DNA of 64,000 nt from Theristus sp. LFF4_11 (taxonomy: Eukaryota; Nematoda; Chromadorea; Monhysterida; Xyalidae). Under the pieces are notes generated by a model that was not told the origin of the DNA, searched no databases, and saw only the letters and a program-made list of their open reading frames with translations. Of the stretch, positions 55,501 to 64,000 are shown piece after piece. The position numbers were made by a program, and so were the translations under genes. The first letter of the stretch is position 1. Every line of letters starts with the position of its first letter. Location: positions 29,777 to 93,776 of the forward strand of contig JASANC010002908.1 of the NCBI GenBank assembly GCA_030248135.1, given 5' to 3'.

Positions 55501-58500
55501 GCCTCCAGATCCACCAATTCCGCCTCGGTCCTGCTGTCTTCCGTATCTTTCAGTTGCGTCTCTCGACTGTTGTCATTGTCTTGGACGATCACGTTTGTCG
55601 CTAGTTTTGAATTGTTGGCGCCATTTTTCAATTTGCTTCTTGTATTTTCAGCGCGCTTCTTCAACTTCTCCAGCGTCAAACGCAGCAAATGCCGATACAT
55701 TTCGTAGCCAATCAGTAGAACACCGCCTTTTGATCGCCATTCCACTGTAACAATGCTGACAGTGACGGTGTTTAGCTGTGTGGCAGCAGTGAAACAGCTG
55801 GGTCAAACAAAAAGTATAATCATGTGTTCGAACACAACAGCAGCTGCCTTGCACTGCCGTTGTTTTTTTGATATTGGTGAATTTGGGGCTGGTCAGCATA
55901 TGTACATGTTCTGATGCACATTTTGAAATTCTCCGAATCGGGCAATGCAGGAATCGAGACTAAACTTGCAAGTTGCTGTGCAAGCATGTTATCCGTACAA
56001 AACACATCAACTTTGAACTATAAAAAAGCTAATTCCCAGAAAAACAACAAAAAAACTGCCGCCCACCAATCAGTTCTATCCTTTGTTCGAGTTTCTTCAT
56101 CGATTCGCTCATTTGGAACACGTGAAACGAGCGAGCGCACTGCAGCGCTTCAACTGGAACCGGAGACGCAGTACACGTCTCAGTGCTACTGCACGCCGAT
56201 TGGTTGGTATCGTGATCGAGATTCGTAACTGCAGTTGAGGTTGTGTCGTGATTATCAGCTGTTGATTGGGATGCGGTGCCGGCCGGAGTTGTGTTTGCCG
56301 CTGGTGCTGCTGTCGTTGCGTTTGCATCCGTTGTTGCGGTTTGAATCGATGTCGCAGTGGAACTGCACGGCGCGTTGTTTGACTCGAAGTCACTCGTCTG
56401 AAATGGAATAAACCCAAAGCCATCGTACGTAACCTTGAGTTTGCTACAGTATGTTTCTTTAAACCTGTCATCTCTGTATGCAGAATACAGCGCGTATGTC
56501 CTAGTGTAACTTTGAATTGCAGTGTTTGGTTGGTTGAAACGGGTGCCCCATTATTGTGGCTAAAAAGATGTTTCCTTGCAACTCCGATCCTGTTCCACAT
56601 TCTGTGTCGCGTGCTCTGTATTTCTGTAATTCCCAAAACGTGACAGGTTTAAACAAACGTACTGTACGTTAATGACATAATGACGTATTGTGGCGACTTA
56701 ACGCTCAAAACACGAATATAATTTTACAAACATTAAAAATTGTGCAAACAACAAACAAAGGCACCGGTAACGGCAGCCACTGATCGAATTCATGCATCCA
56801 ATTTTGAAGCACATTCTTTGGCAGCACACAGAGCACGTGACGAGCGGGCGTGTACCGAAACAGAATGTCGAAAAACGTGATCACCTGCAAACGTCGGCAA
56901 AAACTTAACCGAATTGTATGCGTTTGCAAAAACTTTTTTTGCGAATCTAAAGGCTCAAAACAAAGAAAACATTCATCAACAAAGTCCTAGCATATTCTGC
57001 TGCACAAAACGCGACGTTTCACTTTCTCATAAGTTCACTTCAATTTCTCATACACATGAATATTCTATGAAGCGAAATTCACTTTTCACAAAAAAAGTCT
57101 TTTTCGATCGATCACGTGCATGTTGCGTTCGCACCTGCAGTGTTTTGCCGAGTCCCATGCTGTGCGCGAGCACACAGCCAAATCCGGGCGATTGACCACC
57201 CCGAAATGTTGACGGCGATTCGATCACGTTGTCGTATAGAAATCGCACACCAGCAATCTGAATAGGAAAATAAAACAGGAATCTTTCAGAACAAGAAAAC
57301 CCCGCGTGTACTCGCTGGGACTAACGAGCTGTTTGCTTGACACAACAAAATAAAGTTGGCCTTTTCCCACAACGGGCAGAGAAACATGATTTTGATGACG
57401 GAATGGGTTTTTCACAAATAAACAACAGCACAGCAGCACAATCGCACAAACAGACAGCCGAAAACGCCAATGCATCCAGCCGAACCTGATGCGGTTTCAG
57501 CAGTTCGGACAGCTGCCGCGGGATGAGCACATCCGGCTCGTCTTCAGCGTGACCAGCGTTCAGCAGCACGCAGCCGTGTCTCGTCGGATAGTTCGTCCAG
57601 TCGTCTGTGTAGTCCGTCTCTAAAAGACGGTTTTGGTGCAAAAATAAACTTTTTTGTGGTTCCCTTTTACGGTAGTTCAGTGCGATTGCGCCGATTGCAG
57701 CGTTTCAATTACGAAAGCCCAAGTGAAATGAACAATTGTGAAAGTGGAGCATCTAAAAAACTAAAAACGAGCTTCAACTAGATTAAAACACGACGTGTGT
57801 GTCAGAGACTGTGCAGTGATTGCAACTGAGCATTGCAGCACACACACGCACACCTTTGCGAGACTGCGACGGTTTCGAGTGTGCGTGCTGCTGCGCACTG
57901 CGTCTGCTGGTCGACGGACGCACAGCGTGCCCACCAGGTGCAGCTGTCCCGCCGCATTCCTGCCGGTCGTCGTTGTCCGCCTCCTCGTCGCTGCTCAGTT
58001 CGACCACCTCGATTTTCCGCTGTTTCGTCACGCGCCGCAGTCGCTCCTGTTCGCGTTGCTGTGCGGCGCGGGCGTCCGCCGACAGAACGCTCTCGTCGTA
58101 GTCGCTGCAAAGTTGGCTGTGTGCTTGCTCTGAGAAATGGGTACTGCCGAAGGCGGCATTTCACCTAAAAATTCGAAACGCGATGCGAATTGCGAAGTGA
58201 ACGCCGAATTGGATCAATGGTGCAACAATAACCGAAATTCGCACTCACACAACATAGAAAAAGCGTCAGATTAACGCACCGAATTTTGCGCCGTTTTGAC
58301 GCCGCGTTTTTGCTCACGACGACCGTGGCAGTGGCAACTGATGAAAGCCCATTTTCTACGGGTGATCCGACTTTGGTCTCTTCTGCTCTGGGATTATCCG
58401 TCACTTTTTCGGACGGAACTTTTTGGTCGTTATTTGGGGTTACCACGGTCGATGTCGACATGGCTGTCGAGGAAATGGACACGGCTGTTATTGGGCATCG

Positions 58501-59370: not shown

Positions 59371-59677
59371 TTAAAGTTTCGTTCATACTGACGAATGCTG
59401 ACGCACGTCAACGGCACGTCTCCATGGACGGTCGGGTACCGAACGCTATCATTTTCTTGCGAGAGCTGTGGAACTCGAAGCTCTCGCAACCTTTTTCGCA
59501 CGTGTGTGTACAGTTCCGCCCTTCCATACTTTTTAGTGTGATGCAAAAAGCTGCGCATTAATTATAGATGTTACTGTACATACATACGTCTGTGTGTACG
59601 GAAGACGCTCGAATACAAGCGCTGGCATGACGTGCCGTGCCGTAAACGCATGTCAGTATGAATGAACGGGCCTTTAA
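59371..59677. mobile_element. MITE, family G-like copy 4
   Basis: Ends TTAAAGTTTCGTTCATACTG and, inverted, TTAAAGGCCCGTTCATTCAT; inner arms ACGTCAACGGCACGTC and GACGTGCCGTGCCG. TTAA at both ends could be the target duplication. Confidence 0.7.
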
Positions 59678-59678
59678 T
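59673..59678 (-). terminator. Polyadenylation-like signal for terminal exon B
   Basis: ATTAAA on the minus strand, 44 bp past the stop of exon B. It is part of the end of a MITE, so its use is uncertain. Confidence 0.4.
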
Positions 59679-59721: not shown

Positions 59722-59973
59722 CTATCTATCAGATGTTGATGGTGTTTCCGGGTACATTTTCAGTTCATGGTCCAACAGCCACGTTTTCACCGTCTTCCGT
59801 GTGGTCCCGCTAAATCCGCCCGTTGTCCCGTCAGATCTGATCACACGATGGCAAGGCACCAAAATCATGACCGGGTTTCGTTTCACGGCCTGTCCGATCG
59901 CTTGTGCCGCTTTTTCGTTCAAGTCTGCTATAGCGGCCAATTCTGAATAGCAGACCGTTTTACCGAGCGGCAC
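59722..59973 (-). other. Alternative terminal exon B: MGMT catalytic domain, canonical loop
   Basis: 83 codons plus TAG, phase-0 acceptor (TTTGCAG). It has VPLGKTVCYSELAAIADLNE, NPVMILVPCHRVIRSDGTTG and GFSGTTRKTVKTWLLDHE, which keeps the usual MGMT loop. Because both A and B start in phase 0 and end in a stop, they are mutually exclusive last exons. Confidence 0.85.
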
Positions 59974-62900
59974 CTGCAAAGCGAAAGAAAATTTGTGAAA
60001 ATTGTTGAAAATCATAAACGCGAAACAAAGACGACAGAATATCACGCCAAAACACGGCTTCTAATTTGAAATGCTTTATTCGTCATAATTGGTACTAGCA
60101 AAGAAAACAGAAAAAACATGACACCAAAAACAAAGCAACAACAAAACTCAACCGTGTCCATGAGCTGCGGAAAATGATAGCTTCTAAAAACGCAAATGCT
60201 ATGATCTATTCAAAATCTAAGACAAAAACACAAAAAACAAGCACACTACATATGGACTAGTTATTGTCCGAATTTTATCAAAACTTCCGCATATCAACTT
60301 CTACTGCACGCTGGGTTTGAATTAGTTTTATCATAACCGTCTGTAATGTTCTTTTACTTTGCAAAACAACAGGACCTGGTTGAACAACTCATAGCACAGG
60401 AGGAAGCGAAAACATCAGCTCACTCACACACATCACACGCGCGTTATACGCACTGCCAGTGAGTGCGTTGCATTGTGAATTACCAAATAGAGGTGGAACG
60501 TGAGTTTCAAAAGTCACGGCTTGATAAAGTAACAAAAATTTATTTAAAACAAGGTAAAGATCTTCTTGAAACACGGACTTATTTTAAATAATATCACGAG
60601 TCGATGCCACCGGAGCAAATTGTTTGTTCATGCTCCAAAAGCCACGTTTTCACCGTTTTCAGTGTCTTGCCACCGTCGCCAACCCGTAATTCGCCCGTTG
60701 TCACGTCTGATTTTGTCACACGATGACAGGGCACCAAAATCATGACCGGGTTTCGTTTCACGGCCTGTCCGATCGCTTGTGCCGCTTTTTCGTTTAGTTC
60801 TGCTAGCGCCGCTAATTCAGAGTGGGAGACCGTTTTGCCCAGCGGCACCTGCGTAACATCAGAGTTTTGTTCGTGACCTTCGACTGACACGGTCAGCGCG
60901 GGAGACAAACGCGGGGTTTGACATACGAACGTCGCCCCTAGCCGCGGCCTTCCACACTCATTGTAAAACTTATGGTTACTAGGGTTAGGGTAAAAAACGA
61001 ATATTCAGATTTTTTAAATTAAATTTTTTAAGTTTGGTTTGTTGGAAGCGTCTCGTTGATCTTTTTCGATTTTCAGAACGATCCTGCGAACTATAACAAA
61101 TTGCAAATCCGGCAAATCGTGTTTTATTTGAACTTTTGCCCGTTTCATTGAGATTTGCATTTTCAACAGTAAAACAGGTCAATTTTTGACCTCTAATTGT
61201 TGAATAATGAGTCGTTCTTATTGTTTCTTTGTAGAAAATAACCAAAGCTAACTGAGTTCAATATTCAGCTAACAGGATTTAAAATAACGAAAACATTTTC
61301 CAACCCTAATCTGGGCTCCACGATGACGCTGAACTAGATAGGCTGTGAAAGTTGCCGATGCCGTTCTTAGTTGCTGTTTCGGGTTCTACCTCTTCGAGGA
61401 CAGATTCCGTACCGCAACGAAAGTTTAAAAATACAGGGTCATAAAAACGTCAATTTTGAAAACGCTTCGATCTCGCGACTGCATTAATTAATGTCTGAAG
61501 AATAAATCTGCACCGCTTAGTCATTTGGTTCCCACTTGTTGTGTAAAAATTGCAGCCAAAATATTAATTCTGTTAGGCACAATGGTACTTTTATCCAAAA
61601 TACTACATTTTCGCTGCTTTTTACATTTTTTTTGCATCCGGATGCACGTGATCATCATCATTCAAGTTTTCTTCTGGCAGTATCACATAGTCTTCTGTTT
61701 TACTGTCATCTGCTCCATAACTGTCTTGTTCAATGTGTCCACCGTCACGCAGATCAACAGTGACTGGCCGCTGCGTCGCAAAGTTCTGCAAGGCGTCAGA
61801 CATCGCTTGCAAGTGGTCATTGAAAACAACGGTGGTGGAGACATTGAACAGTTAAGCAATTTCAACACGTGACATAGAAGTACGGCATTATCAAGTAACA
61901 GTAGTAAAAAACAAAAAAAAATGCGAACCTTGGCTAACAACGCGCGCAAGCATTTTCCATTGAACTGGTTCGGCCTGCCGAGCACCGAGACGTCGTCGCA
62001 AATCAACTTCTCCGTCTCAGCCGGCAGCAGCAGCGACGGAACGTCAGGCGACTTCTGCGGAAAAAAGTACGTCTGCAGCCAGGTTGTCAGCTGCCCTCTG
62101 ATCTTGCCGGCGCGTTGCGCATCGGCCAAGTGCGCCTCGGTCACTCGGACGCATTGCTGGTCGGGCTCGAATGTCTGATCGTTGATGGCCGGGTCGAGCA
62201 TCAGCGAATGCACGCCGCGACTACAGACGAACACGTGAATCGAGCCAAGCGGCGTCGTGTAGATCGTCTTCACCAGATCGCCGTTGCAGCGCTCCGGAAT
62301 CGCCGACTCCGCATCGGGACTCTCGTCGATTTTCTGGCGTTTCTCGGCCGGCGGTTCTGTTTGCGGCGTTTCGGGCTTTTTCGGTGTCTGCCAACTGAAC
62401 AGCTGCGGCTTCGACGACGGCGGCGGCGGCGGCGGCGGCGGCGTCGTTTCCGGCGGTGCATCAGACGATTTCGTCTCCGCTTTCCAGTGTTGTCGGCCGT
62501 CTACACTCAACGCGGTCTGGTGCGCTTTGCTGAGGTCCTGGCGCGTCAGTTCACGAAGCGCCATCGTCGCGTAGACGCCAGCCGGTAGCCGGAACCGCAT
62601 GATCAGCGCTCGCTGCGTCCGCTGCTCCTCCTGCCGCTCGGTTGTCGCCGTTCTTGACTCTGACTCGGACGTGTCGCTTTGTTCAGATGGTGGATTTTCG
62701 GTGGGATTGTCGTTCTTCTGCCCATCGATCTGTTTCGCAGGCTCATTTTTCTGGTCGCCTTCTTTCGTTCCGTTATTCGTCTGATTCATGCTGTGCTCTT
62801 CAGCCTGCTTTTCCGCCAAACCACCGTCGTCGCTGTCAAGTTGCTCCGGAGTCGGTCGAATGCGTGACTCGAAATCGGAGACTGTCGAATTCGAGCGGGG

Positions 62901-64000
62901 CAATTGCGCTGTTGTTTCGTCTGTGATTATTGTGGCCGCTTGTTGTTTTCGGTTTTCCTCCAGCAAATCCGCGTCCGAGTAGAGCAGCGACGACTCCGAC
63001 TGGTATTGCACAATTTTGTGCTCAACGTGACTCGGCACAACCACGATGTGGCGGTAATCGCCGGTGAGTGCGAACTGCCTGCACAGAATTCTTTGTTGCA
63101 TTGTGATGGAAATCATTATACAACAACAATCGAGGGGGACAAGGCGACATAAGGCAAGGCCGATCAGAACGCACGGGCCTATGATCGCCCCACGCATGGG
63201 CCAGTCGCCGCGGAATCTAACCAGGAAACCAGTGTGCTAAATGGTGGGACTTGTCCGGAAACCACTAACCAAGACAACTGTGAACTTCAAATTTAGTTGA
63301 GTTATTCCAAAAAAACTTAAAACATGGTGTCATTTTTTGGTTGTGCTCACTTCTTTTGTTGCTCGAAGACTTCCATGGTGAGACCATCCTGTGCTAGTCG
63401 CTCCCGGTACCAGTCGCCAACTGAAATGCGTTATCCGGTAATACAAAATGCACATTAATGCATACATAGAAAACACGCTCAGATTTCCAAAAACAAGCAA
63501 TCAGCGCCATGTCCAACGAAGAGACGCTGGCACCAAACGCTCGTAAACCGTACAAACGAGTGAAGCACACGCATGTACAGTGCATCATTGGCACACATCT
63601 GTACAACATAAATCAGCGCGTCACTGCATTTGTATTGCGTAGTTTTTCAGTTACATGTGTACAAGTGAGTGCATCATACACATACATTGCACACATGCCC
63701 ATGCTGCACTCGCTTGTACGCTGTGACAAAAGACCGACTTTCATTGTTCGGCAACACTGAGTCAGCACCGGGCACCGGCATCAGAACATCGGAAATCGAG
63801 ATGATGTCAGCGTGCTCCACAAACGTCACATCGCTCTTGTCCTGCTCACTCTTGAAAATGAGATCGCCTGTCAACGCTTTCGTTCCAAACTGTTTCAGAC
63901 GACGACTGACTAGTTCGTTCCAGATGCAACTTTGGTAGGCGTGCAAATACAGATTGCGACTGTTGCGTGGCAGCTGAAGAGAACTGCAGTCAATCTCGCT
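59722..64000 (-). CDS. PUS7-MGMT fusion gene (5' end off the window)
   Basis: Exons 63739-64000 (partial), 63351-63420 and 61929-63078, then one of two terminal exons (60594-60848 or 59722-59973). Every join is in phase. The PUS7 part (TruD-family pseudouridine synthase, acting on tRNA and mRNA) shows LHAYQSCIWNELVSRRLKQF, TGDLIFK, DVLMPVPGAD, QFALTGDYRHIVVVP and RFRLPAGVYATMALREL, the normal PUS7 C-terminus apart from a roughly 110-residue acidic insertion before RFRLP. Without a stop, the same exon continues through a PPPPPPPP/EKRQK linker into the MGMT N-domain (TTPLGSIHVFVCSRGVHSLM, QLTTWLQTYFFP, FNGKCLRALLAK). The terminal exon supplies VPLGKTV..SELAA and NPVMILVPCHRV, with the alkyl-acceptor Cys. 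MGMT removes O6-alkyl groups from guanine. The PUS7 catalytic Asp lies outside the window. The fusion is directly visible; its biological use is inference. Confidence 0.9.
60539..60544 (-). terminator. Polyadenylation signal of terminal exon A
   Basis: AATAAA on the minus strand 50 bp after the exon A stop, at a suitable distance for a 3' end. Confidence 0.55.
60594..60848 (-). other. Alternative terminal exon A: MGMT catalytic domain, variant loop
   Basis: 84 codons plus TGA, phase-0 acceptor (ACGCAG). It has VPLGKTVSHSELAALAELNE and NPVMILVPCHRV. After the active site, the usual GGxSGG loop is replaced by TTGELRVGDGGKTLKT, a few residues longer. An AATAAA lies 50 bp past the stop. About 45 codons around the active site are nearly identical to exon B at DNA level. 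Confidence 0.85.
60975..61320. mobile_element. Non-autonomous element with AGGGTTAGGG ends
   Basis: Ends ACTAGGGTTAGGG and CCAACCCTAATCTGG. The inside (GAAGCGTCTCGTTGATC ... TTTTACTGTTGAAAATGCA in the opposite sense) matches 40230-40480. It lies in the intron between exon A and the fusion exon. Confidence 0.55.

Follow-up and report, generated by a model that had tools for sequence, protein, structure and literature searches.

A PUS7–MGMT fusion gene at the DNA level in the nematode Theristus sp. LFF4_11

Can one gene join an RNA-modifying enzyme to a protein of alkylation-damage chemistry? The question is raised by a locus of the nematode Theristus sp. LFF4_11, where sequence of the pseudouridine synthase PUS7 is followed on the same strand by sequence of an MGMT-type alkyltransferase. 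The locus lies at one end of the window (the whole stretch of 64,000 nucleotides that was analysed). A PUS7–MGMT fusion gene is well supported at the DNA level. The best explanation, to which we give a probability of about 0.6, is one gene with both enzymes in a single frame, likely producing one protein of ~960 residues; PUS7 would in that case be the carrier of a one-shot alkyl acceptor.

Gene structure of the locus

The original prediction described a 1,150-bp exon free of stop codons that carries the C-terminus of PUS7 and the N-terminal half of MGMT. This exon, here exon A (exon 12 of the gene model), is present as described, with zero in-frame stops, and contains the quoted motifs (ALTGDYRHIVVVP, YATMALREL and TTPLGSIHVFVCSRGVHSL); its acceptor is TGTGCAG and its donor GTTCGC. 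The following exon, which had been said to add the MGMT catalytic domain with PCHRV, was also found (exon B). A second catalytic exon (exon C) had been missed, as had the coincidence of the window's end with the end of its contig, C1875, which cuts PUS7. The features, all on the reverse strand, are:

63739..63973 (-): PUS7 exon 10, the last PUS7 exon in the window before the contig end
63351..63420 (-): PUS7 exon 11, homologous to L008:1739-1808
61929-63078 (-): exon A, PUS7 C-terminus, Pro-rich linker without an in-frame ATG, and MGMT N-terminal half
60594..60848 (-): exon B, first catalytic last exon, with PCHRV and a stop (DNA_binding_1, E 7.9e-17)
60539..60544 (-): polyA-like AATAAA behind exon B, a single hexamer that could occur by chance
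59722..59973 (-): exon C, second catalytic last exon, with PCHRV, a GFSG loop and a stop (DNA_binding_1, E 6.9e-21)
59673..59678 (-): polyA-like ATTAAA behind exon C, again a single hexamer that could occur by chance

A second copy of the gene lies on contig C557 (locus L008), whose first 2,377 bases overlap the window with 96.6% identity. Exon 10 rests on a TruD match at C1875:93570-93755 and is homologous to exon 10 of C557 (L008:2131-2365), and PUS7 exons 1–9 were found on C557 only. The gene model was fitted by hand to homology and phase, with exons taken from C557. Its twelve exons use GT-AG sites throughout and are free of stops over 2,628 nt; the predicted protein has 959 residues with exon C and 960 with exon B. 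The connection of exon A to exons B and C is present on one contig only.

Two further open stretches lie on the same strand. Behind exon A, 61621-61785 (-) is open for 54 codons, ends with TAA, and is preceded by a phase-0 acceptor-like sequence (CCTTGCAG); it might serve as an alternative last exon without a catalytic part, and no Pfam family matches it above cut-off. Divergence between the copies is 0.95% over 61603-61813 vs 0.88% in the preceding intron, which is weak as evidence. Downstream of exon C, the open stretch 57048-57320 (-) has an SNF2-related match below cut-off (E 4.5e-4) and is probably a helicase-like gene.

Domains and the duplicated catalytic exon

The PUS7 half has the features expected of the enzyme. 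The assembled protein aligns with human PUS7 (5kkp) at E 4.3e-94 and matches Pfam TruD at E 2.9e-71 (241 bits; curated cut-off 27). It contains GTKDKR (residue 223), in whose loop the Asp is presumably the catalytic one, as well as NYYGEQRFG (residue 303), HAYQS and YATMALRE. Among 235 relatives (the best 120 of 264 and the best 120 of 1,228 matches, overlaps merged), the GTKDKR pattern occurs in 231 and NYYG.QRFG in all 235. An active pseudouridine synthase is accordingly what this half is predicted to be from its sequence. The unusual part is what follows. The YATMALRE motif is present in 214 of the 235 listed relatives, where the tail beyond it has a median of 20 residues and a maximum of 163; here the tail is 287 residues long. 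An MGMT-type PCHR occurs in only one of these 235, the model P0002 of Trichinella pseudospiralis.

This tail is related to MGMT. Human MGMT (1yfh) aligns over its residues 7-172 (E 5.9e-18), and the assembled protein matches Pfam DNA_binding_1 (PF01035) at E 4.4e-21. Taken singly, exon C scores 74.3 bits and exon B 61.3 bits (cut-off 27). These two exons are the only PF01035 matches in a six-frame search of the whole genome, a type of profile search that can miss intron-split domains. The Pfam MGMT N-domain (PF02870) has no match in the fusion, and the N-terminal half was aligned by phmmer instead. Of C5, C24, H29 and H85, which we take to be the zinc ligand positions of human MGMT, C24 and H29 are kept and H85 is not; C5 lies beyond the alignment. 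An AlphaFold model of exon A was useless (pLDDT 34).

Exons B and C each have an in-phase acceptor, a stop of their own and a polyA-like hexamer ~50 nt behind the stop; they thus look like alternative last exons, which is the likely arrangement. Splicing of B to C, giving a double catalytic domain, was considered and set aside, since the donor-like TC/GTGATA where exon B ends is in phase 2 and exon C in phase 0 (judged by eye). The two exons share an identical tract of 65 nt (B 60730-60794, C 59855-59919, both (-); codons 19-39), and are about 22% different outside it over the first 156 nt. Because the identity of the tract includes third positions, it suggests gene conversion, which we consider likely.

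Both catalytic exons retain C145, H146, R147, N137 and E172 in human numbering, that is, the Cys-His-Glu triad, the Asn hinge and PCHR. In both, R128 is replaced by Gln. Exon B has further changes (Y114 to His, Y158 to Asp and S159 to Gly), of which the loop residue states hinge on a four-residue alignment gap; exon C keeps Tyr114. Among prokaryotic relatives (the best 80 of 566), position 128 is Arg in 79 of 80, position 114 is Tyr in 80 of 80, and position 158 is Tyr or Phe in 79 of 80. Arg128 is found in human MGMT and in P0002 as well. The 80 loci were excised by a pattern containing N137 and PCHR, so that counts for N137 and for P144 to R147 are not free, and one of the scan patterns (DLNEKAAQ) has Gln at the arginine-finger position. 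The single relative among the best 80 of 566 with Gln at this position is L056 (Geodermatophilus ruber). A passage of PMC10779285 describes R128 as intercalating and flipping the base, with Y114 assisting. Judged from the residues, the absence of the arginine finger in both catalytic exons speaks against ordinary repair of duplex DNA. Repair of RNA by the MGMT half was considered and set aside: human MGMT is reportedly hindered on RNA by a clash of the 2'-hydroxyl at Gly131, according to a passage of PMC10814553, and Gly131 is kept here, so the clash would remain.

Reading frame, rival explanations and origin

The junction inside exon A bears on whether the two halves are made as one protein. 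The genome contains exon A twice, once on C1875 and once on C557 (L008:325-1465); these copies are 97% identical, no third was found, and the pair fits two alleles. The C557 copy also stays in frame. The sole indel between the copies of exon A, of 9 nt, lies within a triplet repeat, where the frame would be kept regardless, so it is weak evidence; a 2-nt indel is found just past the exon A donor. Across all 381 codons, 14 nonsynonymous and 8 synonymous changed codons separate the copies. A loose insertion in PUS7 holds 12 nonsynonymous and 3 synonymous ones in 115 codons, and the linker and MGMT N-half hold 0 nonsynonymous and 3 synonymous ones in 183. When the whole of exon A was resampled under a Markov-1 model, 0 of 2,000 sequences stayed open. 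The GC-rich linker (89 codons) is open by chance in 29% of 5,000 resamplings, so its openness alone is weak evidence. In its own frame the linker scores as coding, with 0.30 bits per codon; read in its other two frames, exon A gives -0.10 and -0.01. The catalytic exon B scores 0.23 bits per codon and exon C a low 0.06. In this scoring the bounds of exon 11 were placed one base too high.

An artefact, in which a wrong contig or annotation joins two genes, might be suspected since C1875 and C557 both break inside the gene. It is very improbable, as the junction is spanned, inside a single exon and away from the breaks, by two contigs that differ by 2.0% substitutions. The gene could instead share an exon between separate PUS7 and MGMT proteins, kept apart by an internal promoter, a spliced-leader acceptor, a hidden intron or translation from a non-AUG codon, located in the linker or ahead of it. 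A passage of PMC7986045 states that operons and spliced leaders occur in both Trichinella and Trichuris, and their PUS7 models (P0121-P0126 and P0127, respectively) end normally. Rfam SL1 and SL2 gave no match here, with controls equally silent, which makes this result uninformative. In-frame CTG and GTG codons directly precede the MGMT start, and intron 11 holds in-frame ATGs in open sequence ahead of exon A. Against this stand the coding score of the linker and its lack of both a PUS7 stop and an in-frame ATG for MGMT. From the PUS7 end to the first MGMT strand no in-frame ATG was found, the two ATGs of the linker being out of frame, so that an AUG start of a complete free MGMT is impossible there; a start at residue 786, where the next in-frame ATG lies, would remove the first MGMT strand. 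Separate proteins are unlikely on this balance.

A third reading accepts the fusion protein and takes its MGMT half to be translated as a decaying, inactive tail of PUS7. The loss of Arg128 in both catalytic exons and of Tyr114 and the loop in exon B would fit such a passenger, as would the low codon score of exon C. The 119 MGMT codons of exon A, however, show 0 amino-acid changes between the copies, both catalytic exons retain the triad and hinge, and exons B and C differ with dN 0.145 and dS 0.59. We regard this reading as rather improbable. The preferred reading thus remains a single gene coding for a fusion. The original claim that PUS7 and MGMT form one polypeptide is well supported at the level of DNA, given two in-frame copies, a GT-AG model, a linker without an in-frame ATG and the failure of the genome search to find any other MGMT catalytic domain; translation as one protein is likely, to go by the sequence.

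Relatives indicate how such a gene could have arisen. The best listed matches of the protein are a Plectus PUS7 (40%) and P0002, a 652-aa model named 'Pseudouridylate synthase 7-like protein' with 33% identity over 56% of the query; the cluster of P0002 has 15 members. Relatives of this kind would by themselves make the source probably a nematode, and a search of the assembly for COX1 gave no match. P0002 departs from its kin just ahead of the last PUS7 segment and then continues into MGMT. Because its sequence leaves out the end of PUS7, a merging of neighbours during annotation may explain it. In Trichinella P0124-P0126, MFAP1 runs into PUS7. Read from these protein models rather than from Trichinella DNA, the neighbours there are probably MFAP1-PUS7-MGMT, which gene callers merged at different points. 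In Theristus sp. LFF4_11, the gene immediately preceding PUS7 upstream, and on its strand, is MFAP1 (C557, L008:7518-9606 (-)), and no further MFAP1 was found in the genome. Contamination was considered and set aside; MFAP1 stands beside PUS7 on C557 in the order of the Trichinella models. The three genes may represent an ancient operon-like cluster. Together with the order implied by Trichinella, the upstream MFAP1 suggests that the fusion probably formed by merging of adjacent genes; the likeliest history is that the PUS7–MGMT boundary was lost in the lineage of Theristus sp. LFF4_11, which made a true fusion. A search for long proteins with an MGMT part gave none among 1,105 candidates, a weak result because it missed P0002 too.

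The original prediction also knew of no described fusion of this kind. In searches of the open-licence PMC literature, no fusion of PUS7, or of any other pseudouridine synthase, with MGMT or AGT was found. The pairing of TruD with DNA_binding_1 is nevertheless in the databases already, as P0002, and is unremarked within the open-licence PMC literature searched.

Proposed working and comparison with known systems

The original prediction suggested that the fusion could put DNA-alkylation repair under an RNA-modifying enzyme, or could simply provide MGMT with a carrier and a nuclear signal (EKRQK). If one protein is made, PUS7 would carry a tethered one-shot alkyl acceptor. The isoform with exon C, in which the Cys-His-Glu chemistry is kept, is predicted to accept alkyl groups. 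In the isoform with exon B the triad is kept but the flipping Tyr and the usual loop are gone, and weak activity or none is predicted. With no arginine finger in either exon, slow transfer from duplex DNA is predicted, and the MGMT domain would act as a damage sensor or low-capacity acceptor rather than in bulk repair. According to a passage of PMC10779285, human, mouse, yeast and archaea all ubiquitinate AGT once it is alkylated and degrade it, and AGT-bound BRCA2 was reported to be degraded along with AGT (cited in a passage of PMC6499797). By analogy with these other organisms, PUS7 would probably be lost as well once the fusion is alkylated. A bolder form of this idea, which we offer as speculative and improbable, is a suicide damage switch on PUS7. 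Lacking the arginine that flips bases out of DNA, the MGMT half would take the alkyl group as a signal, not for bulk DNA repair. A single alkylation would destroy the entire fusion; tRNA and mRNA would be pseudouridylated less as a direct result of damage, and how much PUS7 can be lost would be set by which last exon is used, the reactive C or the blind B.

A single protein would link an RNA-modifying enzyme with the response to DNA alkylation damage. RNA modification and alkylation-damage chemistry would then be united in one naturally occurring protein, plausibly derived from an old gene cluster, and a connection of pseudouridine levels with DNA alkylation becomes testable. It would also be a natural example of an alkyltransferase that has kept its nucleophile and lost its arginine finger.

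With human PUS7 (5kkp) the fusion has in common the whole TruD-type enzyme, GTKDKR, NYYG.QRFG and the YATMA.RE end; the human protein stops shortly past this motif, whereas the fusion adds 287 residues. With human MGMT (1yfh) it shares the alignable residues 7-172, PCHRV, E172 and N137, and differs from it in being joined to PUS7, in its two alternative last exons, in Gln for Arg128 and in the lack of H85. P0002 resembles it in having TruD and then DNA_binding_1 in one predicted protein; unlike the fusion, it lacks YATMALREL at the end of PUS7 and the greater part of the MGMT N-half, and it keeps Arg128. In ATL proteins, as described in a passage of PMC10779285, the active-site Cys is replaced and the Arg finger and Tyr are kept; in the fusion the Cys is kept and the Arg lost in both exons. 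AGT fusions are known from passages of PMC10779285 and PMC6499797, namely AGT-EndoV of Ferroplasma and AGT-2 of C. elegans, the latter also from a nematode. Like the fusion, these join an alkyltransferase domain to another part, which in them is an endonuclease or a histone-H1-like tail on the AGT C-terminal part. In contrast, the fusion of Theristus sp. LFF4_11 has an RNA-modifying enzyme as partner, and the N-terminal half of AGT is present.
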